Positions 5,024 to 32,304 of a stretch of DNA of 32,304 nt are shown piece after piece. Each line of letters begins with the position of its first letter. Positions within the stretch are counted from its first letter, which is position 1. The translations under genes were made by a program, and so were the position numbers. Location: assembly GCA_024681295.1 (NCBI GenBank), contig JAILBC010000020.1, forward strand, positions 1-32,304, given 5' to 3'. The notes beneath the pieces are model-generated. The model saw only the letters and a program-made list of their open reading frames with translations. It did no database searches and was not told where the DNA came from. The stretch is from Bacteroidales bacterium. Lineage in GTDB: Bacteria; Bacteroidota; Bacteroidia; Bacteroidales; F082.

Positions 5024-5055
5024 AGTTAAGAGTTAAGAGTTAAGAGTTAAGAGTT
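5024..5055. repeat. Heptanucleotide tandem repeat, AGTTAAG x 4.5
   Basis: Four perfect copies of AGTTAAG plus four bases. On the minus strand the unit reads TCTTAAC. The array contains the stop codon of the VTC gene, encodes its last residues (TLNS) and fills the gap up to the DUF4956 start. It belongs to the TCTNAMY heptad family found at five other loci in this window. Confidence 0.9.
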
Positions 5056-5807
5056 TTCAATTTATTGATTCTTCGGAGTTTCTTTTTGAAGCGATTCTGT
5101 TTGACTTCAGGGCGGGTCATGGCGGTGCCGATGCAGTATTTGCTGATCTTATAGGGTTTGATACGGAGGTCGAAAAGCACTTCTTTGAGCAGGGAACGGG
5201 CACGGCCGTCCTGTTTCAGTTCCATGATCACCAGCGAGTCCATCGAGGCGGAGGTGTTGGAGACGAAGTTGTTAAAGTTCACGTTACAGTCAATCGTGAG
5301 ACGTTCCGTCTTTTCGTAGTTGACGAGTGTGAAACGGTCGAACACTGTTTCCAAGTTGGGGCTCAGGCTTGCGACTGGATAAGGTTGCCGTTCGGTGAGG
5401 AAAGCCATCGCCTGAGGATCTTTCAGGACGTCCGTTCCTAGAGGTACCTCGATGCGTTTTTTCTTGGTGCGGCCTTTATTGGTTTTGTGTTTCACCTCGC
5501 AGAAGGTCAGGTGCGAGTCCACGTAGGTACGCACCCTCACCTTGTCGCGCACCAGATGCCGGTCGTGATGGATGATGTACATCCTCAGGTCGGGCGTATC
5601 GTAGTACACCGTATCATAGGCAGACAGACGCTTGCCTTCCACTTCCTGGGCATAGTAATGGTCGTGGATGCCGTTCAGGATAGCCATAAGCTGATCGGAG
5701 GTGACTAGGAACTTCGTGTCGACGCGGTTCATCAGTTTGACGTCCTTCATCTCATCCAGGGTGATGGGGCTCATCGTGTTTACTATGTCGAGGATGGCGG
5801 GGTTCAC
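5040..5807 (-). CDS. VTC-domain polyphosphate polymerase
   Basis: 255 residues matching the VTC/CYTH-like tunnel fold that makes inorganic polyphosphate from ATP. Basic tunnel residues are visible in order: NRVDTKF (27-33), YYDT (68-71), HDRH (81-84), KVRVRTY (89-95), CEVKHKTNKGRTKKKR (103-118) and acidic MELKQDG (195-201, with E196 for metal). SKYC near 222 is also typical. No SPX domain and no membrane segment are present, as in other bacterial members. It overlaps the upstream secreted-protein gene by 4 bases and is followed by DUF4956, its usual partner. The C-terminal residues KTLNS are written by the heptad repeat, so the end of the protein may vary between strains. Confidence 0.88.
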   Translation of the reverse strand: MNPAILDIVNTMSPITLDEMKDVKLMNRVDTKFLVTSDQLMAILNGIHDHYYAQEVEGKRLSAYDTVYYDTPDLRMYIIHHDRHLVRDKVRVRTYVDSHLTFCEVKHKTNKGRTKKKRIEVPLGTDVLKDPQAMAFLTERQPYPVASLSPNLETVFDRFTLVNYEKTERLTIDCNVNFNNFVSNTSASMDSLVIMELKQDGRARSLLKEVLFDLRIKPYKISKYCIGTAMTRPEVKQNRFKKKLRRINKLKTLNS

Positions 5808-6232
5808 TTGGAGATGTATTCGAATACTTTGACAGATTCCAGTTTGCCGTTGGGGTAATAGTTGAGTTGGCGGCTCTTGGAGCCGTCTTCGTTATACTCG
5901 AACTTGCGGATGCGCACCACTTTGTCGCGGTCGTTGTATTCGATCTCGCGCACCACTTTGGCGGTGATGTCGCTGTCGGGTGGGTACTCACTCACCACGC
6001 GTGATTTCTGGCCGTAGCTTGCGTATTCGATTTCTTCGATCTTGCGGCCCAGCTCGTCGTAGGTGGTCACATGGTCGAGGAAGGGCATCCGTGAGCCCAC
6101 GGGGGTGTTCCACTCCTTGAGGATCATGCCGCGACGGTTTTCGCGCTTCTGGATGGTGCTTTCGGAGACTGACTGGGAGAACAGCGGCAGGGCGATGAGT
6201 CCCAGAAGCAATAACAACAATAATCTTTTCAT
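5804..6232 (-). CDS. Small secreted protein with YD/MORN-like strand repeats
   Basis: 142 residues. A clear signal peptide (MKRLLLLLLLGLIALPLFSQ) is followed by a series of short strand repeats: TTYDELGRKIEEIEY, REIEYNDRDKVVRIRKFEYN and YYPNGKLESVKVFEY. These resemble the beta repeats of RHS/YD and YwqK-type proteins. No catalytic motif is visible. Its stop overlaps the VTC start (ATGA), so it is the first gene of the operon. The protein is probably periplasmic or surface-bound; function unknown. Confidence 0.75.
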   Translation of the reverse strand: MKRLLLLLLLGLIALPLFSQSVSESTIQKRENRRGMILKEWNTPVGSRMPFLDHVTTYDELGRKIEEIEYASYGQKSRVVSEYPPDSDITAKVVREIEYNDRDKVVRIRKFEYNEDGSKSRQLNYYPNGKLESVKVFEYISK

Positions 6233-6252
6233 TTTCTATTTTTTCTTTATTA

Positions 6253-6330
6253 CGCCTCGCTTCGCTCGGCGAGTTTAGTAGGGGGTTCGCTCAGCCCCAG
6301 GTTACGCTCGCTAAGCTCGCTCACCTGGGG
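6253..6330. repeat. Stacked inverted repeats in intergenic region
   Basis: Two hairpin-forming elements lie in the 126-base gap between the lipoprotein and secreted-protein genes. CTCGC/GCGAG pairs at 6256-6260 and 6269-6273. CCCCAGGT (6295-6302) pairs with ACCTGGGG (6323-6330) around an insert holding two direct GCTCGC copies. The composition is unlike the flanking AT-rich spacers. This is possibly REP-type DNA; I see no coding potential or TAnnTTTG box here. Confidence 0.55.
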
Positions 6331-6341
6331 TTATTAGGATG

Positions 6342-6358
6342 GCACCTCTTCGAGGTGC
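6342..6358. repeat. Perfect 7-bp-stem hairpin abutting lipoprotein stop codon
   Basis: GCACCTC, loop TTC, GAGGTGC. It starts immediately after the TGA of the lipoprotein gene (minus strand). It shares the 11-base core CCTCTTCGAGG with the hairpin at 1417-1433. There is no T-run, so it is a weak candidate for termination and a better one for a 3'-end stabiliser or REP-like element. Confidence 0.6.
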
Positions 6359-7072
6359 TCATACTTGGATTCTTACTATGAAGGTGGTGTCGGGTTCCAT
6401 TTGGAAAACCTGGTTGGCCTCGACGGTGACAGTGTCGATGACCGGGAAGGGGACTTCTTGGGCATCTTGGGTGTAGGTGATCACCTCGTAGGTGCCGGGA
6501 AGTACTTTTTGGAAGGCGAACACGCCGCCCACGCCCACACGGGCGTCGTCAAAATGATAAATCTCGCCGAGTTTGCGGAGATAGACCCTATGTTCGTAAG
6601 CCCAGCCTTCGCCGCGCCACTCGTTGTTATGGAAATACCAAGCCCACACCTTGCCGGTGATGACCGAGGTGCCGTAGGCCTTGCCGTCGTGGACGTAGAT
6701 GGTGGGCACCTGGGCCACCTTACCTCGTTCCAAGGTCACCTTTTCCGACACAGCCACCTTCTCGCCGGTAGGCAGGGTGGAATAGGCAAACACCGTGTAG
6801 TCGCCCGGGGTCAGATAGTTGAACTGATAGAAACCTTCGGGATTGGTCTCGGTATCGTTGCCATAGAATTCCTCGTCGCCATACACGATAAACACGTCGG
6901 TCTTGGCTGCATCGAGGGTGTCGGCTTCCAGTTGGTAGTTGTCGTCAGGGTGATGGACCAGCTTCACGTAGCCCTGCACGGTGCCTGTGCCGCCTTCGCC
7001 TTCCTTGTTGTTGCAGGACGACAAGGCGAAGCACAGAAGCATGACAGCAAGAATGATTTTTCCGTATTTCAT
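6359..7072 (-). CDS. Lipoprotein with carboxypeptidase-regulatory-like (Ig-fold) domains
   Basis: 237 residues. A signal sequence ending in lipobox LSSC predicts lipidation at Cys20 and membrane attachment. Two Ig-like modules follow: GTVQGYVKLVHH...PGDYTVFAYS (about 30-125) and SVITGKVWAW...PGTYEVITYT (about 135-235). The PGxY motifs are typical of CarboxypepD_reg-like or Cna-B-like folds. No catalytic residues are seen. It starts 3 bases after the MarR stop, so it is co-transcribed with the regulator and the AONS-like enzyme. Role unknown. Confidence 0.8.
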   Translation of the reverse strand: MKYGKIILAVMLLCFALSSCNNKEGEGGTGTVQGYVKLVHHPDDNYQLEADTLDAAKTDVFIVYGDEEFYGNDTETNPEGFYQFNYLTPGDYTVFAYSTLPTGEKVAVSEKVTLERGKVAQVPTIYVHDGKAYGTSVITGKVWAWYFHNNEWRGEGWAYEHRVYLRKLGEIYHFDDARVGVGGVFAFQKVLPGTYEVITYTQDAQEVPFPVIDTVTVEANQVFQMEPDTTFIVRIQV

Positions 7073-7075
7073 TGT

Positions 7076-7513: not shown

Positions 7514-7518
7514 AGCAC

Positions 7519-8787
7519 TTAATAGTTATAAGGGATACACATGTTGGGCACTTCGGTGCCATCGTAAACGCCTTTGTCGAGTTTTTCCTTAACCTCCTTG
7601 AAGGCGTTGAGGGTGTATTCCACATCCTCCATGCTGTGCGCAGCGGTGGGGATGATGCGGAAGATGATCATGCCCTTGGGGATGACGGGATAGGTCACCA
7701 CCGAGCAGAAGATGCGGTAGTTCTCGCGCAAGTCTTTGGCGATGTTGGTGGCTTGCACCACGTCGCCCTTGACGTGCACCGGCGTGACGCAGGCCTCGGC
7801 GGGACCGATGTCGAAGCCCATGTTACGGAAGCCCTCCTGAAGAGTACGGGTCACCTTCCACAGTTGGGCTCTGAGGCGGTCGCCTTCCTCGCCGCGGATG
7901 ATCTCAAGACGTTTCTCACAGCCTTCCACGATGGCGAGAGGGAGGCTCTTGGCGTACATCTGGGAACGCATGTTGTAGCGAAGATATTCGATGACATGAC
8001 GCGGGCCGGCCACGAAGCCACCGATGATGGCCATGGCCTTGGCATAGGCACCGATGTAGATGTCGATGTCGTCCATCACGCCGAAATGTTCCGAGGTACC
8101 ACGACCAGTGGGCCCCATCACGCCGAAGCCGTGGGCGTCGTCGATGAGGATGCGGAAACTGTATTTTTGTTTCAGTTTGACGATGCCGGCCAGGTCGCCC
8201 AAGGCACCGGTCATACCATACACGCCTTCGGTGATGACGAGGATGCCGCCACCGGTCTTCTCCACCACTTCGGTAGCCACCTGTAGTTTCTTCTCCAGGT
8301 CGCCCATGTCGTTGTGGCGGTATTTGTATTTGTTGCCAAGATGCAGGCGGATGCCGTCGAGCAGGCAGGCGTGTGCCTCGTTGTCATAGACGATGACATC
8401 GTGGGGGCTGGTGAGGGTGTCGATGGTGGACACGATGCCCTGGTAGCCGAAGTTGAAGAGGTAGGCGGCTTCCTTCTTCTCGAAGTCGGCCAGCTCTTTC
8501 TCAAAATGCTCATGCATGCGGGTCTGGCCCGACATCATACGGGCGCCCATCGGAGCGGCGAGGCCCCAGCGGGCGGCACCTTCGGCATCGGCCTTGCGGA
8601 TGGCCGGATGGTTGGCCAGTCCGAGATAATTGTTCAAACTCCAGCAAAGCACCTCTTTGCCATTGAAAACCATACGAGGTCCCAGTTCGCCTTCCAAACG
8701 GGGGAATGCGAAATAACCGTCAGCACGCTCGCGGTATTGTCCAATCGGACCACCCGAGTCTTTGGCTATTCTTTCAAAAATGTCCAT
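7519..8787 (-). CDS. AONS-family PLP acyltransferase (serine palmitoyltransferase-like)
   Basis: 422 residues of the alpha-oxoamine synthase fold, which condenses an amino acid with an acyl thioester, releasing CO2. Visible motifs are LNNYLGLANHP (51-61), NEAHACLLDG (136-145), TEGVYGMTGALGDL (186-199), DDAHGFGVMGPTGRG (216-230) and the PLP lysine K250 in GAYAKAMAIIGGF. Relatives include KBL, BioF, serine palmitoyltransferase and the cysteate acyltransferase of sulfonolipid synthesis. With an SDR divergent from it, a sphingoid or sulfonolipid first step is plausible. BioF or KBL is less so, because no biotin or threonine genes are near. The N-terminus is longer than in BioF and the C-terminus has an extra tail (VPNMCIPYNY). 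It is transcribed from the promoter at 8836-8843 through a heptad-repeat 5'UTR. Confidence 0.85.
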   Translation of the reverse strand: MDIFERIAKDSGGPIGQYRERADGYFAFPRLEGELGPRMVFNGKEVLCWSLNNYLGLANHPAIRKADAEGAARWGLAAPMGARMMSGQTRMHEHFEKELADFEKKEAAYLFNFGYQGIVSTIDTLTSPHDVIVYDNEAHACLLDGIRLHLGNKYKYRHNDMGDLEKKLQVATEVVEKTGGGILVITEGVYGMTGALGDLAGIVKLKQKYSFRILIDDAHGFGVMGPTGRGTSEHFGVMDDIDIYIGAYAKAMAIIGGFVAGPRHVIEYLRYNMRSQMYAKSLPLAIVEGCEKRLEIIRGEEGDRLRAQLWKVTRTLQEGFRNMGFDIGPAEACVTPVHVKGDVVQATNIAKDLRENYRIFCSVVTYPVIPKGMIIFRIIPTAAHSMEDVEYTLNAFKEVKEKLDKGVYDGTEVPNMCIPYNY

Positions 8788-8793
8788 CTTTAT

Positions 8794-8828
8794 AGAATTT
8801 AGAATTTAGAATTTAGAATACAGAATTT
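8794..8828. repeat. Heptanucleotide tandem repeat, AGAATTT x 5 (one degenerate), forming a 5'UTR
   Basis: Five units: three perfect AGAATTT, one AGAATAC and one AGAATTT. On the minus strand the unit is TCTAAAT. The array lies between the -7 box at 8836-8843 and the AONS-like start at 8787, so it makes up nearly the whole leader of that mRNA. Confidence 0.9.
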
Positions 8829-8835
8829 AAAATTA

Positions 8836-8843
8836 CAAAATTA
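8836..8843 (-). promoter_or_regulatory. -7 box for the AONS-like operon
   Basis: Minus-strand TAATTTTG matches TAnnTTTG. A minus-strand TTG at 8864-8866 lies 20 bases upstream, a good spacing for the Bacteroidota -33 element. Confidence 0.6.
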
Positions 8844-8878
8844 GTAAATATATTGATTATCCACAACCTTAGATTTAT

Positions 8879-8886
8879 TACTTTTG
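8879..8886 (+). promoter_or_regulatory. -7 box for the SDR-VOC operon
   Basis: TACTTTTG matches TAnnTTTG, 18 bases before the ATG at 8905. Its position decides the SDR start: a TTG start at 8884 would lie inside the promoter. It is divergent from the AONS-like promoter about 40 bases away, so one regulator could control both. Confidence 0.6.
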
Positions 8887-8904
8887 CAAAAAAGATATGA
8901 GAAT

Positions 8905-9696
8905 ATGTTGAATTTGAAAGGCAAGCATGCCATTGTGACAGGTGGAGGCACGGGAATCGGGCGATCCATTGCCCTACATCTAGCCCAGGAGGGCTGCAAC
9001 CTGATCCTCACGGGGTTGGGCGAGGCCGACCTTGAGAAAGTCAAGGCAGAGTGCGAGGCTTTAGGTGTGAAGGCTTGGGCTAAGGAGACCCGACTCGACG
9101 ATTACAGTTCCATCGACGAGTTTCATGAGTATGTGACTGGACTTGGCGTGGGCATTGACCTCTTTGTGTTGAATGCCGGCATCTCGCAACGCGAGAAGGC
9201 TTTGGACACCGACTTCAGCGTGGATGAGAAGATTCTCAAGATAGATTTTTTGAGTGGCGTCTATCTGGTGAAGAAGTTCGGTGACATGATCAAAGCCTCG
9301 GAACATGTTCAGTTTTCGGTGACCACTTCCCTCTCGGGTTTGTTTGGATTCCCGTTGCGCTCGGCCTACTGCGCCGCCAAGCATGCACTATTCGGTTTCT
9401 ACGAATCACTGGAATTGGAATATCCCAACATCAACGTTACGTTCCTGATTCCAGGGCGCATCAACACGCAGATCAGCAAGAGCGCCTTGATGGGCGACGG
9501 CACAGCCCATGCCAAGATGGATGCGGGACAAGCCAACGGTCTTGATGTGGACAAGTGCGGCGCCATCGCCGTGAGGGCCATCAAGCGGCAGAGACACCGC
9601 AAACTCATCGGCAAGAAAGAATTGTTAATGGCACATATACATAAATGGTGTTTGCCACTCTACTATAGATTATCTAGGAAAATCTCAGCAACATGA
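8905..9696 (+). CDS. Short-chain dehydrogenase/reductase (possible 3-ketosphinganine-reductase-like)
   Basis: 263 residues with the classical SDR Rossmann fold. The cofactor loop is TGGGTGIG (about 13-20), followed by NAG near residue 91 and the catalytic set Ser (TTSLSG), Tyr and Lys (SAYCAAKHALFGFYESLELE). PGRINT after the active site is also typical. The YCAAKHAL.GFYESL segment resembles the DHRS7 / ketosphinganine reductase branch. Together with the divergent AONS-like enzyme this suggests reduction of a 3-keto amine product, but this is inference. The ATG at 8905 is preferred because the upstream TTG falls in the promoter. The stop overlaps the VOC gene start (ATGA). Confidence 0.85.
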   Translation: MLNLKGKHAIVTGGGTGIGRSIALHLAQEGCNLILTGLGEADLEKVKAECEALGVKAWAKETRLDDYSSIDEFHEYVTGLGVGIDLFVLNAGISQREKALDTDFSVDEKILKIDFLSGVYLVKKFGDMIKASEHVQFSVTTSLSGLFGFPLRSAYCAAKHALFGFYESLELEYPNINVTFLIPGRINTQISKSALMGDGTAHAKMDAGQANGLDVDKCGAIAVRAIKRQRHRKLIGKKELLMAHIHKWCLPLYYRLSRKISAT

Positions 9697-10783: not shown

Positions 10784-10799
10784 CATTCATTCATTCCTA

Positions 10800-11321: not shown

Positions 11322-11364
11322 TTTACAAATTATTTAATGATTTAATTTTTCCTTTTTGAGGGCG

Positions 11365-17276: not shown

Positions 17277-17648
17277 TTAGATGTTCATATAACGCATCAG
17301 TAAGGAGTATCTGTCGAGCAGGTCGAGGTTCTCGTCAGGCGAACTGAAGACGCCAACGATGTTGTAGTTGTATCGTTCGAAGCTTTTGACGATGGCGGCG
17401 CATTCAGGTTGGTTCAACAATAGGGTCACCACGATCCTGCCAGGGTCTTCAGGGTTATCGTCGACCGTGAGGCCAAGTATCTTGGCATCGTTTTCCTCCA
17501 CGATACGGGCAATTTCAGAGAGGCTATAGTCATAAGCACCCATCTCCAGTTGGATGATGGAGGTGAGAGGTGAGAGGTGAGAGGTGAGAGTTTTCCAGTT
17601 TTCCGTTCCAAGTTCTCCGTTTTCAGTCTTCATAGCTCCAATCCTCAT
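17277..17648 (-). CDS. ACT-like C-terminal half of a CBS-domain protein (5' half lost)
   Basis: 123 codons if the ATG at 17648 is used; MKTENGELG at 17633 is an alternative. Residues about 30-123 (IIQLEMGAYDYSLSEIARIV...LLMRYMNI) match the C-terminal ACT-like domain of a protein of about 220 residues that precedes NAD kinase in other Bacteroidales and normally starts with two CBS domains. Those CBS domains are absent. In their place lie about 25 residues written by the heptad element at 17560-17625, and beyond it the rsgA coding end, which this gene overlaps by 26 bases. It is either a decaying gene or a functional stand-alone ACT domain. The CBS-ACT comparison is from memory of the family. 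Confidence 0.7.
   Translation of the reverse strand: MRIGAMKTENGELGTENWKTLTSHLSPLTSIIQLEMGAYDYSLSEIARIVEENDAKILGLTVDDNPEDPGRIVVTLLLNQPECAAIVKSFERYNYNIVGVFSSPDENLDLLDRYSLLMRYMNI
17560..17625. repeat. Compound heptad element (GAGGTGA x4 then GTTTTCC-type x5)
   Basis: Four copies of GAGGTGA plus GAG (17560-17590) adjoin about five degenerate units of GTTTTCC type (17590-17625). In the minus-strand coding sense this is a purine-rich block followed by TCTCACC repeats. It encodes the N-terminal segment KTENGELGTENWKTLTSH and following residues of the ACT-like remnant, and reaches the stop codon of rsgA. Confidence 0.85.
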
Positions 17649-22430: not shown

Positions 22431-25400
22431 CTATTCCACCTTGTAATGCCCCAAATAAACCAATCCTTGGTTGCCGTCGATGGCAATCTTGTCGCCCATG
22501 TGGAGGGGATGGCCGTTGATGGCGCCGAACTCATCGTCGATGTCGACGTCGAGGCCGTCGCAGTTCACCACGCAGACCTTGCCAAGGCGCACTGCCGTGA
22601 CAGCAGCATGCGAAGTGGCGCCACCGCGAGCGGTGAGCAGACCGTCGCAGTCGAAGATCATGCCGATGTCGTCAGGCACCGTGTCGGGACGGACCAAGAT
22701 GACATTATCGTCAGGACACTTCTCGCGGAGCTCCTTGATCTGCTGGGCGTTGAAGGCCGCCAATCCATTCATAGCGCCACCACCGATGCCGATGCCGTGG
22801 CCAACGGAAAGTTGAAAACGGAGAGTGGAAAGTGGAAAGATAAATGAACTTTCCGTTTTCCGTTTTCCGTTCTCCGTTGTCTTTAGGTCTTGGTCGCGGG
22901 TCTGAAGAATATAGAAATCATCGGGGTTATCGCTCTCGAAGGTGAATTCAATCTCTTGGGGGCTGTAGCCCAGTTCTTCGGTGAGTTTCACGGCGGTGTT
23001 GTAAATCTTCTTGTACATGTCGGGCAACATGGTCTGCATGGAGGGGCCTTCGAGACCTGCTGCTTTGCGTTGGGTCTCCCCTATCGGCAGCGGTTTCACA
23101 AGGCCGCCCACGATGTCCTCGCCCTGGCTGCGCATGGTGAAGTCGCCATAGAGGTGTACGCCAGGCCGTTCACGGTTGGGGTTCTGAGTGAACACCACGC
23201 CAGTGCCAGAGGTGGCGCTGCGGTTGCCGAAGATCATCTGCTGTACGATGACGGCCGTTCCCCAGTTCTCGGAAATGCCAAGGTGACGACGGTAAGCCAG
23301 GGCACGTTCCGAGTTCCATGAGTCGATGACCATATTGACGCACTCGATGAGTTGTTTGAAAGAGTCTTGTTCGAAGACCACACCGTGATCATCAAGGATG
23401 CGTTTGTAAGCCATGGCAATCTCGCGCATCTGGTCAGCGCTAAAGTCGGCTTTCATCAATACGTTGGTCCGCTGCTTATAGGCGTTGATCTCGTCATCAA
23501 ACACATCACGTTCGATGCCTTTGGCCATGCCCCAACTTTGAAGGAGACGGCGGTACGAGTCCCAGATGGCCCATCCCTTGTCGGAATCCTGGGCCACAGT
23601 CTCGGCAATCTCGTCGTTGAGGCCGACATTCAAAAGGGTGTCCATAGCACCTGGCATGGAGATGGCCGTACCTGAACGCACCGAAAGCAGCAGTGGACGC
23701 TGGGGATCACCGAATTTCAGCTTGGTGATGTCCTCCAGTCCATCGATGAACTTGCGGATCATGCCGTGAATCTCGGAGCGCAGTTCGGGGATGGTGTTGA
23801 TGGTCTCGTTACGGCGGAAGGTCTCAGTGGTGATGACAAAACCAGGAGGTACTGGAAGTCCGTTCAGGTAGAGGTTCTTCAGGTGGTAGGCCTTGTTTCC
23901 GATAAACACCTGGTTGTCCATCTTGGGTGTGGGGGTCCAGAAGGGGCTGATGAGCATCTCAGAGTTGTAGGTCATGATGTCGCGGATCAGTTTCTCGTCG
24001 AGGTCGGCAGCCATCCCTCTTAACGACTTCAGGATACGGGCGATGAAATTGTCGAGGGGCTGCATCAGGAAGGCGTCCGACAGCAGGTCACGGTGGAACT
24101 CTTCGGATTTACGGCTTATCAAGGCGGCGGTCTCACGTTCGTCAAGCTTGCCTTCGGGGTCGAAGAGTTGCGGGACGATGACCTTGAGGGGATATTCGTA
24201 AGACTTCAGGAAGTAGCTGATGACGATGCGTTTCACGTCTTCCGAGATAAACTGGAAGATGTTGATATACTGATCGAACGAGAAGCTTCGTGAGGTCAGT
24301 GAGTACTTGAGCATCTGTAGTTTGGCGTTGAGGCCTTGGTTGGTGATGCCGTCGAGTTCGAGACCTTCGCGGAAGTATTCGAGGATGTCGTAGATGACTT
24401 CAAGCGTGCGAGCAGAGATGTATTCGAGGTTGATGCTCTGAACCACCTGTTCCATGAGTTGGGTAGCTACACGTTCAAGGCGGAAGGTCAAGCCCATGGC
24501 CTCGAATTTGTTCTCGCGGTAGGTGCCATACATCGAGGGGATGCCGATGGCGATATGGCGTTTGTGGTAGATATTCTCCCAGCCTTCGCTCTCTTCGGGA
24601 TTGAAAATCACCGATTTCAATTTCTCCATGAAGGCATAGATGAGCTTCAGCGACTTGCCCACCTCCTTGTTTTTATAGGCTTTCTCAAACTCGTCAATGT
24701 CTTTGTCAGCGATGAAGGGATAGTTGCGCAGCGAGCTGAAAATGTTGACCGACTCGAAGGAGTATTTCTCGCGCAGGAAGGCGTAGAGATCCTTGATATC
24801 CATGAGTCGTGCGTGTTCGCGGTCGCCGATGGTTTGGTCAATACCCAGTTTCTCCACGGCACGATGGATGAGTTTGTCGAAGTCGTCGCGTGAAAGCATG
24901 AGCAGGTCCTCGGGGTCGAGACAACTGGTCTCGCACATGGCCACGGTAATCTCATGCACGTAAGTGAACCATTCGCTATTGACGTCGATGCTGTCGTATA
25001 CGTTGTTGGGAAGGATGGCTCGGAGATCCTCTTTGACGCCATCGCACCAAAACTTATATACGTTAAGCGTTAACCCTATAAGTGTATTGTTACTTTCAGT
25101 ATGTACTTGTTTTCTGAGGAAATGAACCAGTTTATCTTCGCGGCCTGAGATTTCGTCCATATTGGTGGTGACATTGCGAATCTCGCCTTCGGCGCCGATT
25201 TCGTTGAAATAAACCGGGAAGATGCGGGTGAGCTGTTTCACCTTCTTATAATAGGGACTGATGTTCGAGTTGAGAATCTTGGTAATCTCGCGTTGGAAGA
25301 GGTCCGTGTCGCTAAGGAAGATACCTCCTAGTTTGAGGTTGACGATGAGGGAGGAGAGCAGTTTCTCCATGGGGTATTTGGAGTGTTCGATGAGTTCGAG

Positions 25401-26543
25401 CCACACGCGGATGTTTTTCAGGTGGTTCTCGTCCACCGAGAGTTGCCAGTCCTCGTTGACGAACACTTTGCCTGGGGTGACGAAGCCGAAGTTGATGAGT
25501 TTCTTCTCGAAGTAGTTGACAATGTCGCGTTGTTCGGTTTGGTCAATGTCGATGATCTTCAGGCCCAGGGTCAGCTGGAAATCGAGCACGGCCGACATGT
25601 AGTCGCCGCGGAGTTCTTGGGCGAGATCGAAAATGGTGTCGATGAAAGGCTCGATATCTTCTTGGGGCATTTCGTCGACAGCGTCGCGGAGCATGCGGTT
25701 CATGTTCCAGATGAGGCGTTCACGCTGGCTCTCCATCCCCGGGAGGTGGAGCAGGTAGAACACGTAGTGGAACTTGGTGATGAAATGAGGGAAGGTCTCT
25801 TCCGATTTCGTGAAACGAGCGGCGATTTGGTCGAATACCGGCATGTTGGAGAGTCTCTCCCAGGTATCGGCATTTTCCAAGTCGTTATTGAGTTGGTTGA
25901 AATAGGGCTCGCCGATGGAGTCCTTGATGGCTTTGGCCTCATCGGGTTGAACAAGAGCGGCTTTTTCGGTAAGCCATTGTTCCACTAGGGTAGTGTCGCG
26001 CCAGTAGCGGTAGGTTTCTTGGAGGATGGTCTTTGTCAAGCTCATTGCCTTAGGGCCGTATTGCTCGTCGTGGGCCAGTTTGTCCAGATAGCGAATGGCG
26101 TATTTTGAGGCCAGGATGTAGCAGTCTCGGTTGTCGTCGAAGCGTTCTTCAAGAACGTCGAAAACAGCGTCGAGGAGTACTTTCTTGGTAGCAAATTCAA
26201 GGAGGGTGTTAACAATATTGAGCCTTAGCTTTTTTGAGACTTCTGGTCTCAGAAGGCTACGCATCATCTCAATGGGGACAAGCAAAGCATCGGCGGGAAT
26301 GTCATCGCGGGTGTAGAACCAGAAATCGTCGATCAGGATCTTACGGAGTTCCTCGGTGACGAACGTGTGGTTCGACATCGGGTGGTGGAATTCGGTGATG
26401 CACTCCTTGGCTCTTTTGTTGATTCCGAAATATTTGACAGAGAGGTTGATGAACTCTTGATGTATTTCGGGGATGAAGATGTTTTTGTATCGGGTCTGCT
26501 CGAGGTTGGCCTCAAGGGCTTGTGATTTAAAAGGTTCGGACAT
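22431..26543 (-). CDS. Giant PEP/pyruvate-dikinase-like protein (ATP-grasp and swivelling His domain, no TIM barrel)
   Basis: 1370 residues. Residues 1 to about 870 are a large, mostly helical region of unknown function. A PPDK-type nucleotide-binding domain begins near 873: NKAYHLKNLYLNGLPVPPGF, SVRSGTAISMPGAMDTLLNV, TQNPNRERPG and GEDIVGG, ending DDFYILQTRDQD. A swivelling phosphohistidine domain holds TARGGATSHAAVTA (His near 1310). The C-terminal PEP/pyruvate TIM barrel of true PPDK and PEP synthase is absent, so the acceptor reaction is unclear. It could phosphorylate a protein or another substrate. Between the two domains, residues about 1221-1246 are encoded by a heptad element. The ATG lies 4 bases after the hipA stop and no promoter box is visible, so it may be transcribed with hipBA. 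Confidence 0.85.
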   Translation of the reverse strand: MSEPFKSQALEANLEQTRYKNIFIPEIHQEFINLSVKYFGINKRAKECITEFHHPMSNHTFVTEELRKILIDDFWFYTRDDIPADALLVPIEMMRSLLRPEVSKKLRLNIVNTLLEFATKKVLLDAVFDVLEERFDDNRDCYILASKYAIRYLDKLAHDEQYGPKAMSLTKTILQETYRYWRDTTLVEQWLTEKAALVQPDEAKAIKDSIGEPYFNQLNNDLENADTWERLSNMPVFDQIAARFTKSEETFPHFITKFHYVFYLLHLPGMESQRERLIWNMNRMLRDAVDEMPQEDIEPFIDTIFDLAQELRGDYMSAVLDFQLTLGLKIIDIDQTEQRDIVNYFEKKLINFGFVTPGKVFVNEDWQLSVDENHLKNIRVWLELIEHSKYPMEKLLSSLIVNLKLGGIFLSDTDLFQREITKILNSNISPYYKKVKQLTRIFPVYFNEIGAEGEIRNVTTNMDEISGREDKLVHFLRKQVHTESNNTLIGLTLNVYKFWCDGVKEDLRAILPNNVYDSIDVNSEWFTYVHEITVAMCETSCLDPEDLLMLSRDDFDKLIHRAVEKLGIDQTIGDREHARLMDIKDLYAFLREKYSFESVNIFSSLRNYPFIADKDIDEFEKAYKNKEVGKSLKLIYAFMEKLKSVIFNPEESEGWENIYHKRHIAIGIPSMYGTYRENKFEAMGLTFRLERVATQLMEQVVQSINLEYISARTLEVIYDILEYFREGLELDGITNQGLNAKLQMLKYSLTSRSFSFDQYINIFQFISEDVKRIVISYFLKSYEYPLKVIVPQLFDPEGKLDERETAALISRKSEEFHRDLLSDAFLMQPLDNFIARILKSLRGMAADLDEKLIRDIMTYNSEMLISPFWTPTPKMDNQVFIGNKAYHLKNLYLNGLPVPPGFVITTETFRRNETINTIPELRSEIHGMIRKFIDGLEDITKLKFGDPQRPLLLSVRSGTAISMPGAMDTLLNVGLNDEIAETVAQDSDKGWAIWDSYRRLLQSWGMAKGIERDVFDDEINAYKQRTNVLMKADFSADQMREIAMAYKRILDDHGVVFEQDSFKQLIECVNMVIDSWNSERALAYRRHLGISENWGTAVIVQQMIFGNRSATSGTGVVFTQNPNRERPGVHLYGDFTMRSQGEDIVGGLVKPLPIGETQRKAAGLEGPSMQTMLPDMYKKIYNTAVKLTEELGYSPQEIEFTFESDNPDDFYILQTRDQDLKTTENGKRKTESSFIFPLSTLRFQLSVGHGIGIGGGAMNGLAAFNAQQIKELREKCPDDNVILVRPDTVPDDIGMIFDCDGLLTARGGATSHAAVTAVRLGKVCVVNCDGLDVDIDDEFGAINGHPLHMGDKIAIDGNQGLVYLGHYKVE
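22806..22876. repeat. Compound heptad element inside the PPDK-like gene
   Basis: Five purine-rich units (GGAAAGT, TGAAAAC, GGAGAGT, GGAAAGT, GGAAAGA; 22806-22840), an 8-base spacer, then four pyrimidine-rich units (CTTTCCG, TTTTCCG twice, TTCTCCG; 22849-22876). The halves are roughly inverted copies, so the element can fold as a long imperfect hairpin. It is read in frame and adds ENGKRKTESSFIFPLSTLRF and flanking residues. Confidence 0.88.
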
Positions 26544-26547
26544 GGTA

Positions 26548-27651
26548 TTATTGATATTCTTTTGACATTATTTCTTTACAATTTTCTCGGACGAAGTCGA
26601 TGATCTCCAATCCGCGTTTTTTTGATATTCTGATATCCTCGCCCACTGCCAGCATGTCATTTACGGTAGGTTTGCCGTTGCCGTTCACCGAGGTGGCATG
26701 TTCGCCATGGTAGCCTTCGGGTAGCGGAGTGAGGTCATAAGCCGGAGCCATCTTCCAGCGTCCGTCACGGCAGATGAAGCTGAAGTTTTTGGCATGGTCA
26801 TCCTTATTGTCAGTGAACACGTTGAATGCCATAAGGCGGAACATGGCCTCCACTTGTTTGGGCTCCTGTGTTAGATAACCAGTGAGGTGAAGCAACGTCT
26901 TATAGTCGAGTTTGGGAAAATCTATCGACTCGTTCAAGAGTGCGCCTGCGGTAGCCACATGGAGACGTTCTCCATCGGCTAGGTCGAAACGGCGCGAAGC
27001 GAAATATTTTCCTTCCATCAGCTTGAAATCGGGTACTTCGATGCCGCAACGACGGGCGGTTTCATTATAGTGGAACTCTGTCGCTCCGAAGTCCTTGGGG
27101 TCGTAGGTATGGCGAAACTTCACCAACCAGTCACCTTCCTCATCGTGGTAGAGACATTTTGGGCGGCATCCGCAAGAGTTGCCGCTCCGATAATAAAGTG
27201 CGGCGGCATCGTTCTCGTTTCGTTCCGACAGCACTTCCAATGCCATCTCTTGAATACGGTCGAGCGCAATGACTTCCGAGGAGGGCTCCATCTTGGTTTC
27301 CGGCTCGTAGCATAAAGCGCCCATCCCCGATTCGCCCACAATGCTTAGGCGTTGCAAGGGCCTCAAACCCAACTCGTCAATCCCCTGCTGACGGAGCATC
27401 CTGTTAAGGAGGTATCGTCCGTAGCCATCGGGGAGGCTATCCTCGAAGATGCCGAAATTGCCCCAAAAAGGGCGTTCGGGGGCGATGAACATTTCAGACT
27501 TCAAAGGCAAATCCAGGGGAGAGATCGAGAAGCCCGCCGCCAGCCATTCCTTGTCGTAATGGAACACGCAGCGTTTTCCATCGGGTGTTTGGGTCAACTC
27601 GCCGACAGTCTTCCCATGATATTTGACGAATATCTTACTGATTGAATTCAT
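26548..27651 (-). CDS. hipA: HipA-family Ser/Thr kinase toxin
   Basis: 367 residues from ATG 27651, chosen because a strong purine-rich site GGGGGAG lies two bases before it and it overlaps hipB by only 17 bases; the longer start at 27726 would overlap by 92. The HipA N-terminal domain includes SPLDLPLKSEMF and FGIFEDSLPDGYGRYLLNRM. SIVGESGMGALCYEPE follows. SGNSCGCRPK (156-165) corresponds to the loop with the autophosphorylated serine (S159 here). The catalytic segment is NKDDHAKNF (D284, H286, N289) and the metal motif is APAYDLTP (D306). Known HipA kinases inactivate tRNA synthetases and cause persistence; the target here is unknown. The PPDK-like gene follows after 4 bases. Confidence 0.9.
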   Translation of the reverse strand: MNSISKIFVKYHGKTVGELTQTPDGKRCVFHYDKEWLAAGFSISPLDLPLKSEMFIAPERPFWGNFGIFEDSLPDGYGRYLLNRMLRQQGIDELGLRPLQRLSIVGESGMGALCYEPETKMEPSSEVIALDRIQEMALEVLSERNENDAAALYYRSGNSCGCRPKCLYHDEEGDWLVKFRHTYDPKDFGATEFHYNETARRCGIEVPDFKLMEGKYFASRRFDLADGERLHVATAGALLNESIDFPKLDYKTLLHLTGYLTQEPKQVEAMFRLMAFNVFTDNKDDHAKNFSFICRDGRWKMAPAYDLTPLPEGYHGEHATSVNGNGKPTVNDMLAVGEDIRISKKRGLEIIDFVRENCKEIMSKEYQ

Positions 27652-27961
27652 TTCTCCCCCGTTTTCTGCCCTTGTTTCTGTTGATGGTGTCGAGTTCCTC
27701 CATAGTGGAATACACAGGTTCGGCAAGCAGCGATTTCAGTTCATCCGTATAACCCAAAGCCTTTGCCAAGGCAAGGAATCCCACCAGCGAGATACAATGA
27801 TGCTGCTCAAACTTGGCGATCGTAGGCACGGGCACTCCGCTCATCATTGACAGGGCTGCACGCGACAGGCCCTTCTCCAGCCTACGTCGTTTCACATTCC
27901 CGGCCAGCCTCACGGCCAAGTCATCCGCCGAGTCCATATTGAAATCATACAGCAAAGGCAT
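27635..27961 (-). CDS. hipB: HipB-like XRE-family antitoxin
   Basis: 108 residues with a lambda-repressor-type HTH: LAGNVKRRRLEKGLSRAALS, SGVPVPTIAKFEQ, LVGFLALAKALGYTDEL (about 18-75). A basic C-terminal tail (RNKGRKRGRNEFNQ) follows. A start at MDSADD (27937) is possible. It overlaps hipA and is expected to neutralise the toxin and repress the operon. A -7 box is at 27989-27996, and copies of ATTGTAT in the leader and promoter could be its operators. Confidence 0.88.
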   Translation of the reverse strand: MPLLYDFNMDSADDLAVRLAGNVKRRRLEKGLSRAALSMMSGVPVPTIAKFEQHHCISLVGFLALAKALGYTDELKSLLAEPVYSTMEELDTINRNKGRKRGRNEFNQ

Positions 27962-27964
27962 ACT

Positions 27965-28071: not shown

Positions 28072-28076
28072 CTTTG
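28069..28076 (+). promoter_or_regulatory. -7 box for gapA
   Basis: TATCTTTG fits TAnnTTTG, 45 bases before the gapA ATG. Candidate upstream TTG at 28043-28045. Confidence 0.6.
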
Positions 28077-28121
28077 CATTTTGATTTAAATTTGAATAAT
28101 CTTTAAAACAATTAGCATCCA

Positions 28122-29129
28122 ATGGAAAAGATTAAAGTAGGTATCAATGGTTTCGGCCGTATTGGCCGTAACGTGTTCCGCATCATTTGCGAACGTCCGA
28201 ATCTGGAAATCGTGGGCGTCAACGACCTGACGAGCACCAAGGTGCTGGCCCACCTGTTGAAATACGACTCCACCCAAGGCAAGTTCCCTGGCACGGTGGA
28301 ATATGACGAGACTGCGTTGATTGTCAATGGCCAGCGCATCCCAGTCACCGCTGAGCGTTCACCGCTGAACATCAAGTGGGGCAAGACCCCCGACGTTGTG
28401 GTTGAGTCAACTGGTGTGTTCCGTACCAAGGACGGCACCAAAGGCGGCTATGGCGACCACCTGAAGAACGGCGCCAAGAAGGTCATCCTCTCCTGCCCTT
28501 CGAAGGATGCCATCGACGCCACCATCGTGGTCGGTGTGAATAACCACGAACTCACTGACGAGATCGAGTGCGTGAGCAACGCCTCCTGCACCACCAACTG
28601 CCTAGCTCCCGTGGCCAAGGTGTTGAACGACCGTTTCGGCATCGAGCAGGGTTACATCACCACCATCCACAGCTACACCAACGACCAGGTGATCCTCGAC
28701 GGTCCGCACAGCGACCTTCGTCGTGCCCGTTCCGCCGGCTTGTCGCAGATTCCCACCACCACTGGCGCCGCCAAGGCCGTGGGTATTGTTATCCCTGACC
28801 TCAACGGCAAACTCGACGGTATCGCTGTCCGCGTCCCCACCCCGACCGGTTCATTGGTTGACCTCGTCTGCACATTGAAGACCGAAGCCACCAAGGAAGA
28901 GATCAACGCCGCCATGAAGGAAGCCGCCGAAGGCCCGATGAAGGGTGTGCTTGAATACACTGAAGACCCGATCGTGAGCTGCGACATCATCCACAACCCC
29001 CACAGCAGTGTGTTCGATGCCCAGAGCACCATGGTGATGGGCAAGATGGTGAAGATCATGTCGTGGTACGATAATGAATGGGGTTACTCCAACAGAATGG
29101 TGGACCTGATTGAGATGATGAAGTATTAA
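28122..29129 (+). CDS. gapA: Type I glyceraldehyde-3-phosphate dehydrogenase
   Basis: 335 residues. NAD-binding INGFGRIGRNVFR (8-20), with Asp35 in VNDL pointing to NAD rather than NADP. The catalytic segment is SNASCTTNCLAPVAKVL (Cys156) and the catalytic His is in TTIHSYTNDQ. The C-terminal SWYDNEWGYSNRMVDL is typical. It converts glyceraldehyde 3-phosphate to 1,3-bisphosphoglycerate in glycolysis. Codon use is strongly biased to C-ending codons, as expected of a highly expressed gene. A heptad repeat and a terminator follow. Confidence 0.97.
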   Translation: MEKIKVGINGFGRIGRNVFRIICERPNLEIVGVNDLTSTKVLAHLLKYDSTQGKFPGTVEYDETALIVNGQRIPVTAERSPLNIKWGKTPDVVVESTGVFRTKDGTKGGYGDHLKNGAKKVILSCPSKDAIDATIVVGVNNHELTDEIECVSNASCTTNCLAPVAKVLNDRFGIEQGYITTIHSYTNDQVILDGPHSDLRRARSAGLSQIPTTTGAAKAVGIVIPDLNGKLDGIAVRVPTPTGSLVDLVCTLKTEATKEEINAAMKEAAEGPMKGVLEYTEDPIVSCDIIHNPHSSVFDAQSTMVMGKMVKIMSWYDNEWGYSNRMVDLIEMMKY

Positions 29130-29136
29130 AGAAGAC

Positions 29137-29162
29137 AGAAGTAAGAAGTAAGAAGTAAGAAG
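29137..29162. repeat. Heptanucleotide tandem repeat, AGAAGTA x 3.7
   Basis: Three perfect AGAAGTA units plus five bases, between the gapA stop and its terminator, touching the left arm of the hairpin. On the minus strand the unit is TCTTACT, fitting TCTNAMY. Confidence 0.85.
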
Positions 29163-29183
29163 GGACGGCTACGGCTGTCCTTT
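29160..29183 (+). terminator. gapA terminator hairpin with cUACGg tetraloop
   Basis: A ten-base-pair stem (two G-U pairs), AAGGGACGGC and GCTGTCCTTT, closes on the loop TACG, giving the very stable UNCG class. The T-run after it is short and interrupted. It lies 30 bases after the gapA stop. Confidence 0.7.
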
Positions 29184-29203
29184 CTTTGGTTAAAAAAACG
29201 GTT

Positions 29204-29881: not shown

Positions 29882-29890
29882 GCCCCTTTT

Positions 29891-30910
29891 TTATGGGATC
29901 AAGATTTTGTTCACGAAAGGTATTTTTCGGATCAGTTTCGTTGTGTAAAGACTCAAAACGAAAACAGCAATACAGATCAAAGGCAGCATGAACGCTTGAT
30001 TGAACACGTTCCGGACGATCTCTTTGTTAAGCACCATCAGCCACAAATCATGGGTCAGATAAATGCCGAACAAGTCGTGCCTCACATAGTCAACCAAACG
30101 ATAGGTCTTGGATCCCCGACCGGCCGTCCTCTCTTTTACGAAGACAAACAACGCGGCCGCCATCATCATCACGTGAACGCTTAGGTAGGTATAGAACTTT
30201 TCGTCAAATGCACCTTTGGAAAGCGACAATCCGATACTACCGCCGATAGTGGCAAGTGCACTCACCATCCCTAGGATATAGATTACCCATCTTTGCCCCG
30301 TGGTGGTCTCAAGGGATGAAAGATAGTAACCCAAAAGAAAGTATCCGGCATACCCGACTAGGGTATTCATAGCAAACAATGGAGCGATCTGCTTGATCTC
30401 GTCGACAAAAACGAAACTGCCTGCGAGATAACACAACCAGATCAGCAGGGCATAACGCAACAGTTTCCTGTCCGATGCAATGGGGCGCAACAGGGGGATG
30501 AGCAGATACACGCCACAAAGCATGGGAAGAAACCACAGATGGTAATGGGGAGTAAGCCATTCAACCTGAAACGGCTCCTTTTTGATTACATACCACACCA
30601 ACACAATGGCCAGGGCATAGATCAACCACCAGGAAACGTAAGCCAACAAAAGACGGGGGACTTTTCTTTTCAGCACCGTTTTAGTCGTGATCTGCTTTTG
30701 TGGATTCAGGTACAAAGCCCCGCTAATCATCACAAAAACCGGCACTGCCCAACGCACCAGACTGCCACCCACCACGGCGACATACCAGTTGTATTGCCCA
30801 AACGACAACGGCAACCCGTCCGCCACCACATGGATGAAGATCACCGCAAGGGTCGCGACGAGGCGGAGGATGTCGAGATAGGCGATACGCTGTGTGTTGT
30901 TGTCAGGCAT
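29891..30910 (-). CDS. Acyltransferase family 3 (OafA/WecH-like) membrane protein
   Basis: 339 residues with about ten transmembrane helices. The family opening RIAYLDILRLVATLAVIFIH (with the conserved R-x4-D and catalytic His of IHV) is at 8-27. HLWFLPMLCGVYLLIP and YAGYFLLGYYLSS are typical later motifs. Such enzymes O- or N-acetylate surface glycans using acetyl-CoA. There is no SGNH domain in this chain, though a separate SGNH esterase is encoded next door on the other strand. It begins 8 bases after the T9SS-type gene, so it is probably co-transcribed with it. Confidence 0.9.
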   Translation of the reverse strand: MPDNNTQRIAYLDILRLVATLAVIFIHVVADGLPLSFGQYNWYVAVVGGSLVRWAVPVFVMISGALYLNPQKQITTKTVLKRKVPRLLLAYVSWWLIYALAIVLVWYVIKKEPFQVEWLTPHYHLWFLPMLCGVYLLIPLLRPIASDRKLLRYALLIWLCYLAGSFVFVDEIKQIAPLFAMNTLVGYAGYFLLGYYLSSLETTTGQRWVIYILGMVSALATIGGSIGLSLSKGAFDEKFYTYLSVHVMMMAAALFVFVKERTAGRGSKTYRLVDYVRHDLFGIYLTHDLWLMVLNKEIVRNVFNQAFMLPLICIAVFVLSLYTTKLIRKIPFVNKILIP

Positions 30911-30918
30911 TTCAAAAC

Positions 30919-32304
30919 TTATCTGATGATCATGATCGACCCCTGGAGGCGCTTGGTGACAGGCCCTTCGGGGGTTATCATTTCCACGTCGCAGACGTAG
31001 AAATAAGTGCCAGGTGAGCAGGGCTGACCGCTACCACCAGCGCGACCGTTCCAGTTGATGAAAATGTCGTCGGTATCGAAGACCGTGCGGCCCCAGCGGT
31101 TGAAGATGTGCGTCTTCACATTCGTGATAAGGTCAGGGGTGATGCGTAAGGGAACGAACACGTCGTTGATGCCGTCGCCATTGGGCGTAAAGGCGTTAGG
31201 CAACTCATAAACAGGCTGGTCGGGTTCCGGCTCTGGTTCTTCCGCTGTGGGCTTCACCTCGACGATGGCGGAAAAGTTCACCAACGGACGGGGCAAACCC
31301 TCCAACGTGTAGTGCCCATAGGTACAGACATAATAACGGTAGGTGACTTCGTTTTGGACGTGAACATCGTCGTATGACATGGCGGCAGTAGTCCCAATCT
31401 TGACAAACACCGTGTCCAATTCCTTGAAGATCTGGGTACTATCGACCACCCAAGGCACTTCCTCTGTCCAACTTAAGGAAGCCTTTTGGTCTTCTCCCTT
31501 GCCAATAAGCATCACGGCACCGGCAGAAGCGCTGGTTCCCATCACCTGCTGATTGGCATCTTTCATCTCCACCCGATATGCCAAAGACTGTACTTCAGCA
31601 AGATTCACCTCCGTATCGAAGAAGGTGGAGTCCGAGCCAGAATAGACTGTACTTTCCGAGCCATTGAGGTTGCGAATAAGTCGGTAAGAATAAGGTGCTG
31701 TAAACTGGTCATCAATTTCCCGGGGTCTCACCCACGCCACCTTAAGATGACCGTTATTTAACTGTGACTCGTCGTTGGAGACTTTGGTCATCAGCGGTTG
31801 ATTGTTCGGGATTTGAAAACACACCTCCTCGCTGGGTCGGCTCTCGGCGCCATCGTGGAACAGGGCTACCACACGGTAACAATAGTCCACGCCTTGGGTA
31901 AACTCCACTCCCCCATTGTCGTCGACGTAGAAAGTGGCATTGGCAGGCAGTTCGGCAATCATTTGATAGCCTGGACGAACACCAGTCTCGCAATAGTCAG
32001 GCTCGTAAGGCGTGGAACCGGTACGGCGATACACACGGATGGCGGAGACGTTGGAGCAGCACAGATAAGGCGACCAGGTGAGGTGAGAATTGAGAATTGA
32101 GAATTGAGAATTGAGAGTTTTCCGTTTTACCTCCCATTCGGTCGGTGAGCCCTTCGGGGTTCCGTTTTCCGTTTTCCACTTTCCACTTTCCACTTCCAGT
32201 CCTTCCACTGCTGGGCCGATGACGGTGATATTGACGGCATGGACATTGGAGAGGGGGATGGGGAAAGAGTTGTCCTTGGCGTGGATGACCAGTTGGTAAG
32301 GCAT
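30919..32304 (-). CDS. T9SS type B (gliding-motility-associated C-terminal) secreted protein, 5' truncated by window
   Basis: 461 residues are visible and the frame reaches the edge; the Met at the edge is probably internal. The C-terminal domain (about 366-461) is the CHU_C type: LPNAFTPNGDGINDVFVP, HIFNRWGRTVFDTDD, WNGRAGGSGQPCSPGTYFYV, ending GSIMIIR. It marks export by the type IX system. Upstream are fibronectin-III-like modules (VRVYRRTG-like strands, FTQGVDYCYRVVALFHDG, YRYYVCTYGHY) and the acidic proline-rich EEPEPEPDQP linker. Residues about 36-75 are encoded by a heptad element (32080-32198), an insertion between modules. Function is likely adhesion or surface structure. Confidence 0.88.
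   Translation of the reverse strand: MPYQLVIHAKDNSFPIPLSNVHAVNITVIGPAVEGLEVESGKWKTENGTPKGSPTEWEVKRKTLNSQFSILNSHLTWSPYLCCSNVSAIRVYRRTGSTPYEPDYCETGVRPGYQMIAELPANATFYVDDNGGVEFTQGVDYCYRVVALFHDGAESRPSEEVCFQIPNNQPLMTKVSNDESQLNNGHLKVAWVRPREIDDQFTAPYSYRLIRNLNGSESTVYSGSDSTFFDTEVNLAEVQSLAYRVEMKDANQQVMGTSASAGAVMLIGKGEDQKASLSWTEEVPWVVDSTQIFKELDTVFVKIGTTAAMSYDDVHVQNEVTYRYYVCTYGHYTLEGLPRPLVNFSAIVEVKPTAEEPEPEPDQPVYELPNAFTPNGDGINDVFVPLRITPDLITNVKTHIFNRWGRTVFDTDDIFINWNGRAGGSGQPCSPGTYFYVCDVEMITPEGPVTKRLQGSIMIIR
32080..32198. repeat. Large compound heptad element in the T9SS gene
   Basis: GAGGTGA plus four GAATTGA units (32080-32114), then GTTTTCC and GTTTTAC (32117-32130), then about 33 bases with a small hairpin (CCC, TTC, GGG), then GTTTTCC twice and ACTTTCC twice (32164-32191) and a degenerate unit. 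In the coding sense, purine-rich heptads precede pyrimidine-rich ones. Translated residues include ESGKWKTENG and NSQFSILNSHL. Confidence 0.85.

Follow-up and report, generated by a model that had tools for sequence, protein, structure and literature searches.

The six loci described here, from a gut bacterium of the Bacteroidales, are members of a class of 7-bp tandem micro-arrays found throughout the genome. The purine strand of an array tends to face away from the flank that it adjoins: a gene end, a gene start or, at intragenic sites, the sequence on either side. Inside genes, the arrays substitute for older codons and keep the reading frame. We infer, with a probability of about 0.4, that they arise by slippage together with copying between arrays, in which purine 3' ends would be extended.

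The window, i.e., the whole 32,304-nucleotide stretch of DNA that was analysed, carries the features collected in Table 1. The six loci of the preliminary description are real and accurate to within a few bases (the last spans 32080–32195), and both consensuses that it quoted for the pyrimidine strand, TCTNAMY and TTTCCRY, are correct, as are its heptamer units. The 5017–5055 array lies 1 nt away from where ORF 4291–5016(−) starts and overlaps the end of ORF 5040–5807(−). The 17560–17625 compound encodes the N-terminus of ORF 17277–17648(−), the 22803–22878 compound lies in-frame within a PPDK-type gene, 22431–26543(−), and the 32080 compound sits in ORF 30919–32304(−), a gene with a CHU_C domain. 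Gene contexts here and below come from a codon-usage gene caller built for this analysis; no annotation was used. An Rfam search of the window gave 0 matches at the gathering threshold.

Table 1. Heptamer arrays and associated features of the window.
Feature	Position	Strand	Composition and context
Simple array	5017–5055	+	Purine unit AGTTAAG on +, pyrimidine unit TCTTAAC on −
Simple array	8793–8826	+	Unit TAGAATT (TCTAAAT on −); between divergent ORFs 7519–8787(−) and 8884–9696(+)
Compound	17560–17625	.	Purine array GAGGTGA x4 (17560–17590), then irregular pyrimidine units to 17625
Compound	22803–22878	.	Purine block 22803–22839, loop, pyrimidine block 22850–22878 (TTTCCGT)
Simple purine array	29130–29162	+	AAGAAGT/AAGTAAG; immediately past the stop of gapA-like ORF 28122–29129(+)
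Predicted hairpin, terminator-like	29158–29185	+	3' of gapA; last array unit used in the outer stem; z −3.5 on +
First half of compound	32080–32128	.	Purine array (TGAGAAT), then short pyrimidine stretch GTTTTCCGTTTT
Dispersed 31-bp core	32129–32159	+	Inside the 32080 compound; 10 matches in this genome
Pyrimidine array	32160–32195	+	TTTCCGT, then TTTCCAC

Seven perfect period-7 runs of at least 14 matches were found in the window; among periods 2–30 the only other one represented was the harmonic 14, with three runs. At a 12-match cut-off, the seven observed runs compare with a mean of 0.0 and a maximum of 0 in 200 dinucleotide shuffles, and the anticipated excess over shuffled sequence is thus present. 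Among the same-genus genomes sampled, period 7 comes first in all five (array hits were part of the reason for choosing the stretches of G000, G004, and G010, but played no part for G023, G009, and the stretches L061–L080), while in G009 period 8 nearly ties, with 22 arrays versus 28. G009 had at first passed for array-poor, with one TCTNAMY match, which was rejected when a de novo search returned 24 elements with other words; the stretches of G225 held one array. The picture of a dispersed family, uniform within loci and different between them, therefore holds above chance and genome-wide. Tandem 7-nt units occur beyond chance and ahead of other lengths, as in heptanucleotide long simple sequence repeats. 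Heptamers are the leading long-unit class among such repeats and among the cyanobacterial STRR sequences, as they are here; the STRR sequences are specific consensus heptamers of cyanobacteria, and the present host belongs to the Bacteroidales.

The unit words behave as species dialects: within one genome a small set of words turns up again at dozens of loci, while most relatives have, by pattern, few or none of them. A single, looser grammar covers most units: YYT-N-MVY, read on the pyrimidine strand; the corresponding YYTNMVY x4 scan is permissive, its reversed control also matching arrays (344 vs. 195 in G000), and it shows breadth rather than exact counts. Nor is TTTCCRY limited to compound elements, as had been supposed: it also forms simple arrays in this genome, and TCTNAAT units form compounds in relatives.

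One strand rule nevertheless holds across these species-own words, a hint that a common copying process may lie behind this little-studied class of bacterial repeats. In 71 versus 17 arrays that adjoin only a stop, and in 21 versus 7 that adjoin only a start, the purine strand is directed outward from that border; such one-border arrays lie mainly at stops (88 vs. 28 at starts), and 24 of the 116 are exceptions to the rule. A nearest-flank test gave 113 outward and 46 inward, and the rule recurs in G396, a genome of the same phylum (9 vs. 2). It is weak for units without GG (47 vs. 29, p 0.05), and separate arrays within 1 kb of each other show no purine–pyrimidine order (RY 10, YR 12).

Turnover of the arrays was read between species at 70–90% identity. 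In 28 of the 31 detected orthologous arrays, site and polarity were the same and the words different; two had opposite polarity, one of which (L144) is a compound by eye. In 25 compared relatives no array was detected at the orthologous sites. At L116:4935, arrays were seen in eight of ten relatives by eye and in six by the detector. The 8793–8826 site of the window, followed in nine relatives, carries an array of the same polarity in six, of opposite polarity in one, and none detected in two. The suggestion that units drift as a group is right as far as it goes but incomplete, since the unit word gives way to another whereas place and polarity persist. Such sites, conserved but for their words, make it possible to follow array turnover.

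Within genes, ancestral sequence has given way to the array: about 34 bp in PPDK, with the length unchanged, 57 to 75 bp at 17560, 55 to 64 bp at L130:1473, and 34 to 85 bp at L130:5160. At 17560, four relatives have other codons, and the compound of G020 is built of other words. Compounds of the TTTCC class inside genes encode similar peptides, their words changing between species nevertheless. Several host genes are housekeeping enzymes (Mur ligase, class-V aminotransferase, PPDK type), and in-frame replacements in them repeatedly supply new protein loops. A 7-nt unit does not divide evenly into codons, and the arrays do lie in coding sequence, which is what switches turning genes on and off by unit gain or loss would need. 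Such phase variation is highly improbable, given the housekeeping hosts and the length differences between species: all 83 intragenic ones (six sites; the relatives are not independent, and 53 comparisons share one PPDK difference) were multiples of three, whereas at intergenic sites this holds for 18 of 37. The frame shifts that had been predicted from unit gain or loss are thus not seen between species.

The 32080 element is broken by a 31-bp non-array core, and the matches to this core counted in Table 1 are those with at most three mismatches. In 13 of the 21 copies read, the core lies between pyrimidine heptamer arms and is joined to them at the same base. Two copies in G023 have another word on both sides, and at one MBOAT site the core lies within a compound in G008 and is absent in G000.

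Single arrays prevail, 247 of 302 elements being purine-only or pyrimidine-only; four masked all-N stretches are excluded from these counts. Compounds (47–148 bp) place the purine block before the pyrimidine block in 54 cases versus 0 in the reverse order, with one mixed, so that the order first noticed in the window is a rule; outward purine polarity at each flank would produce it, as arrays from two flanks read purine-then-pyrimidine. One of the 54 calls (G010, L238:17473–17525) looks by eye less like a true compound than a mixed tract. The long hairpin ascribed to all three intragenic elements of the window holds for PPDK (z −5.1 and −5.4 vs. shuffles) and not for 17560 (z −0.6 and +2.0) or 32080 (z −0.8 and +1.9). 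The constant order could also mean that the compound is the whole of a mobile palindromic element of the Rickettsia-palindrome, MITE, or REP type, with single arrays as its halves and words diverging after insertion. We consider this unlikely. The arms are indeed matched in G023 and G010, where 0 of 5000 swaps reached the own-arm score, three G010 elements have the loop AGCCTGCGGTAGC in common, intragenic copies are in-frame, and arrays 16–60 nt past a stop are pyrimidine-sense (20 vs. 4), as expected of a distal half. Against it stand the prevalence of single arrays, arms of different unit classes in several compounds (L085, L074, L101, and the window compounds at 17560 and 32080), and the replacement, not mere interruption, of ancestral sequence. 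Rickettsia palindromic elements likewise sit in-frame within unrelated genes (PMC10969869), as do the 15 of our 54 compounds called inside genes; those are described, in the available text, as families of about 150 bp with a conserved peptide, whereas the present elements are heptamer-built and change their words. Mirror copying of arms as a general process was rejected: it holds in G023 and G010 and is suggestive in G004 (375 of 5000 swaps), but own arms in G000 are no better matched than swapped ones (0.540 vs. 0.556), and within the TTTCC class matching was not significant in any genome. No inverted pairing of TCTNA units was found in G000.

Under the reading we favour, arrays would grow and shrink through 7-nt slippage and would template one another, by template switching or short-homology conversion via shared units. 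Such templating would spread a genome's words, overwrite adjacent bases, and carry passengers such as the 31-bp core; extension of the purine-strand 3' end outward from the flank would set the polarity, fold-back copying could give the matched arms of some elements, and arrays would be tolerated by selection where genes end and within protein loops. The period spectra, dialects, strand rule, same-site word change, codon replacement, passenger core, and matched arms in G023 and G010 argue for slippage with copying between arrays; turnover seen between species and not as a copying event inside one, the unmatched G000 arms, the exceptions to the rule and its weakness in units lacking GG, the lack of order within 1 kb, period 8 in G009, the two orthologues of opposite polarity, and the 25 relatives with no array argue against it. 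Plain local slippage, with chance seeds, independent drift, and no traffic between arrays, would explain the prevalence of heptamers by how much DNA the polymerase holds, a suggestion made earlier for long simple sequence repeats. It accounts for the local homogeneity of arrays and the persistence of sites, and heptamers are described as the leading 5–11 nt repeat class in most genomes (PMC4679880; PMC4692102). We regard it as unlikely on its own: a handful of words is found at dozens of loci of one genome yet, by pattern, is scarce or missing in most relatives, and slippage alone would not lead one to expect that codons at the flanks are replaced or that arrays enclose a common core.

Heptamer repeats as such are not new, having been counted, though not explained, in many bacteria, and the analogy drawn earlier to cyanobacterial heptamers is apt. 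The nearest precedent is GGGAATC, reported from Xanthomonas and Nostoc (PMC4692102), whose tandem 7-bp arrays lie for the most part between genes and near ORFs, with the G-rich purine strand coding after stops and non-coding before starts, sites common to species while length and sequence vary, and divergent gaps under-represented. Interest in these GGGAATC/GGGGA(C/T)T repeats was ascribed to G-quadruplexes; as described there, they use one quadruplex-capable G-run word per group and prefer four units, whereas here there are many words, GGG in 5 of 155 arrays near a stop, RY compounds, and replacement inside genes. A strand rule over many unrelated words, matching that of quadruplex-forming repeats in two other phyla, points to a common cause, which is testable. 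A further heptamer, TAACTGA, has been described from Beggiatoaceae, some Cyanobacteria, and five Bacteroidetes (PMC4679880), which qualifies the earlier remark that no formal description was known; our literature search found no paper on such arrays in Bacteroidales. The TAACTGA heptamers too are patchily distributed direct repeats, with related species lacking the array and other heptamers nearby in some Bacteroidetes, but, in the available text, a single word in one orientation, mostly just upstream of start codons; ours are many-worded and lie mainly at gene ends, and TAACTGA is absent among the 22 commonest units listed for each of five genomes. Neither a dialect-wide strand rule nor a passenger core is mentioned for long simple sequence repeats or STRR sequences in the available text of the two papers. 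A dedicated cellular process, working mostly in 7-nt steps, that lengthens purine-rich 3' ends away from flanks that are kept, using a word particular to the genome, would keep rewriting gene borders and some protein loops, and would make the Xanthomonas and Nostoc heptamers the same kind of product and quadruplexes incidental; this we hold to be a rather unlikely, speculative extension.

Some arrays may have been recruited as transcript-end hairpins, at gapA and between convergent genes. Compounds gather in the latter setting: 22 of 38 intergenic compounds lie between convergent genes, compared with 98 of 748 baseline gaps, and in G023, sampled irrespective of arrays, 8 of 12 compared with 28 of 224. 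That the elements as a whole are selected at the RNA level, their purine 3' ends and hairpins kept as terminators or 3' stabilisers, is a reading that this clustering and the gapA hairpins favour. It is nevertheless improbable, since the intragenic compounds, where termination is unwanted, are all RY as well, and of the three in the window one alone folds more stably than its shuffles. At the end of gapA itself, a heptamer compound hairpin is present in three relatives, and in several genomes the hairpin with a U run at the gene end is terminator-like by eye.

Period-7 arrays are present at all six places for which the preliminary description had claimed heptamer loci (see table). The window (G000:C132 in an assembly of 2,715,622 bases and 174 contigs, 91% complete) contains seven perfect runs of period 7, each with 14 matches or more. 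No other period between 2 and 30 occurs except 14, the harmonic of 7. With the cut-off set to 12 matches, dinucleotide shuffling (200 replicates) yielded a mean of 0.0 and a maximum of 0 period-7 runs. The host is an uncultured member of the Bacteroidales, and the closest named matches of its PPDK-type protein come from assemblies mostly of ruminant gut.

Coordinates of the arrays and neighbouring features in the window
Position	Strand	Feature
1828-3588	-	ORF, by its motifs a putative protein kinase-AAA ATPase fusion
5017-5055		heptamer locus
6295-6359		65-bp intergenic dispersed repeat
8793-8826		heptamer locus
17560-17625		heptamer locus
22803-22878		heptamer locus in the PPDK-type gene
26548-27961	-	two ORFs, putatively a HipA/HipB-type pair
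29130-29162		heptamer locus at the gapA end
32080-32195		compound element (purine array, then pyrimidine array)
32129-32159		31-bp core of the 32080 element

In 20 stretches of the host genome, G000, selected independently of arrays (165,330 bases once masked stretches were removed), there were 20 period-7 arrays, and the periods from 3 to 15 other than 7 and 14 gave 0 to 3 arrays each. Three tandem units of TCTNAMY matched 62 times in this genome vs 7 for the reversed control, and three of TTTCCRY 68 times vs 0 for the control. Period 7 also ranks first in the same-genus genomes G023 (71 arrays in 400 kb), G004 (63 in 379 kb), G010 (71 in 191 kb) and G009 (28 in 104 kb) and in G396, labelled only as of the same phylum (37 in 200 kb); the pattern-rich G225 has just 2 arrays in the 200 kb examined. 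The unit length itself varies in G009, where 22 period-8 arrays (AAGACTAC, AGTCACCG and others, in L226, L227, L229, L230 and L232) occur in the same 104 kb.

The triple TCTNAMY was matched in 21 of 23 same-genus relatives and in 2 of 16 genomes of other families within the order, and the triple TTTCCRY in 9 of 60 genus genomes, G000 included, four of which have at least 28 matches. The unit tables vary from genome to genome, with TTTCCAC/TTTCCGT in G000, TCTAAAT/TCTTACT in G004, CTTTAGC/CTTTTGC in G009, and TTTCCAC and ATTCCGC in G010. A four-unit YYT-N-MVY pattern matches in 265 of 395 Bacteroidota genomes, which indicates breadth only, because its reversed control also matches arrays.

Among 302 elements from five genomes, 54 are purine-then-pyrimidine (one of them, L238, doubtful by eye), 0 pyrimidine-then-purine, 1 mixed and 247 single. 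For single arrays adjoining only a stop codon the purine strand is the sense strand in 71 vs 17 cases, and for those adjoining only a start the pyrimidine strand is sense in 21 vs 7; therefore the purine strand runs outward from the gene border that the array adjoins. Arrays adjoining both are split 29 and 27. A nearest-flank test gave 113 outward vs 46 inward (p 1e-7), and 9 vs 2 in G396. Near stops, the bias is 58 vs 16 for units with GG but without GGG and weaker for units without GG (47 vs 29, p 0.05). The 7-bp register in G000 is kept where GGRA-type modules give way to TYTCC-type ones, with 12, 24, 33, 40 and 38 pairs at distances of 7, 14, 21, 28 and 35 and 0 to 7 at other distances, the linker being AC or GT in 10 of 12 adjacent cases; neither the opposite order nor TCTNA modules in this genome gave 7-bp distance peaks.

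Intergenic compounds with both neighbours called (n = 38) lie in convergent gaps in 22 cases and in a divergent gap in 1, against a baseline of 98 convergent among 748 gaps. In G023 stretches sampled without regard to arrays, an array is carried by 16/43 convergent, 29/220 codirectional and 3/45 divergent gene pairs. Comparison by eye of the gapA 3' end in 20 relatives showed purine arrays leading into a hairpin, as in the window, in G066, G070, G050, G008 and partly G053, the heptamer compound itself as the hairpin in G004, G010 and G023, and no heptamer array in the remaining 12. In several of these a GTAGAGACG...CGTCTCTAC palindrome replaces the array (L171, L175, L180, L181, L185). Some arrays are likely used as transcript ends, a use that cannot account for the same purine-pyrimidine order within coding sequence. 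Fifteen compounds were called within genes: a Mur ligase bears one at the same place in G000 and G023, a class-V aminotransferase bears one in G023 and G010 (by their motifs probably MurE and SufS), and the hosts also include an MBOAT protein, riboflavin kinase/FAD synthetase, U32 peptidase and S41 peptidase. In several host proteins the array falls inside the Pfam match.

At orthologous sites, place and polarity are kept and words change. Of 61 distinct relatives, 53 have a PPDK site that is 24 bp shorter and 8 one of equal length; in insert-bearing relatives the array is of equal length with different words (TTTCCGT in G000, TTTCACC in L005) or is decayed (L002, L007), and among the sequences listed about 34 neighbouring coding bases have turned into purine array only in G000. 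At the 17560 site, four relatives have the older codons and G020 a compound built of other words. Directly 3' of one stop codon (L116:4935), 8 of 10 relatives have purine-sense arrays by eye, in at least six word classes, and 2 have none; the automated detector gives 6 with an array. Across single-array sites of G000, the 31 arrays detected in relatives have the same polarity in 28 cases, the opposite in 2 (one, L144, a compound by eye) and a compound in 1; 25 compared relatives had no array by the detector. All 83 length differences at six intragenic sites are multiples of three, as are 18 of 37 at five intergenic sites, the relatives in both counts not being independent events.

The 31-bp core, searched with up to 3 mismatches (control, 0), matches 10 times in G000, 20 in G008 and 13 in G023 and is found in 8 of 60 genus genomes. 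In 13 of 21 copies inspected, with arms judged by eye, it is flanked by pyrimidine heptamer arms with the junction at the same base; two of these, both in G023, have another word on both sides. At one MBOAT site the core lies inside a compound in G008 and is absent in G000.

A single explanation has to account for the fixed period, the words common to a genome, the inheritance of sites and polarity while words change, flank replacement, and passengers such as the 31-bp core. A proposed mechanism, slippage together with copying of one array from another, covers all of these, and the polarity suggests that purine 3' ends may be extended by synthesis outward from the flank. Plain slippage is one of the two strongest rivals. 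The other is a mobile palindromic element; the matched arms in G023 and G010 favour either this or fold-back copying, but arms of mixed class and the numerous single arrays speak against the element. In PMC4679880 and PMC4692102, heptamers are reported as the leading class among long-unit repeats and a polymerase-length suggestion for their prevalence is already made; GGGAATC-type repeats of Xanthomonas and Nostoc, as described in PMC4692102, follow the same position and strand rule as the arrays here. Our literature search, with most subscription journals outside its reach, found no report of such arrays in Bacteroidales.

The other 8 inspected core copies lie outside heptamer arrays, 7 of them within a different palindrome, GGATT...GCAATGAC (L360-L364, L365, L366 and L370). 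A loop, AGCCTGCGGTAGC, is common to three G010 compounds (L237, L242, L244), one with arms of another word. In G004 the 65-bp dispersed repeat is matched at least 10 times, in some cases by 32-bp pieces with a spacing of about 36 bp.
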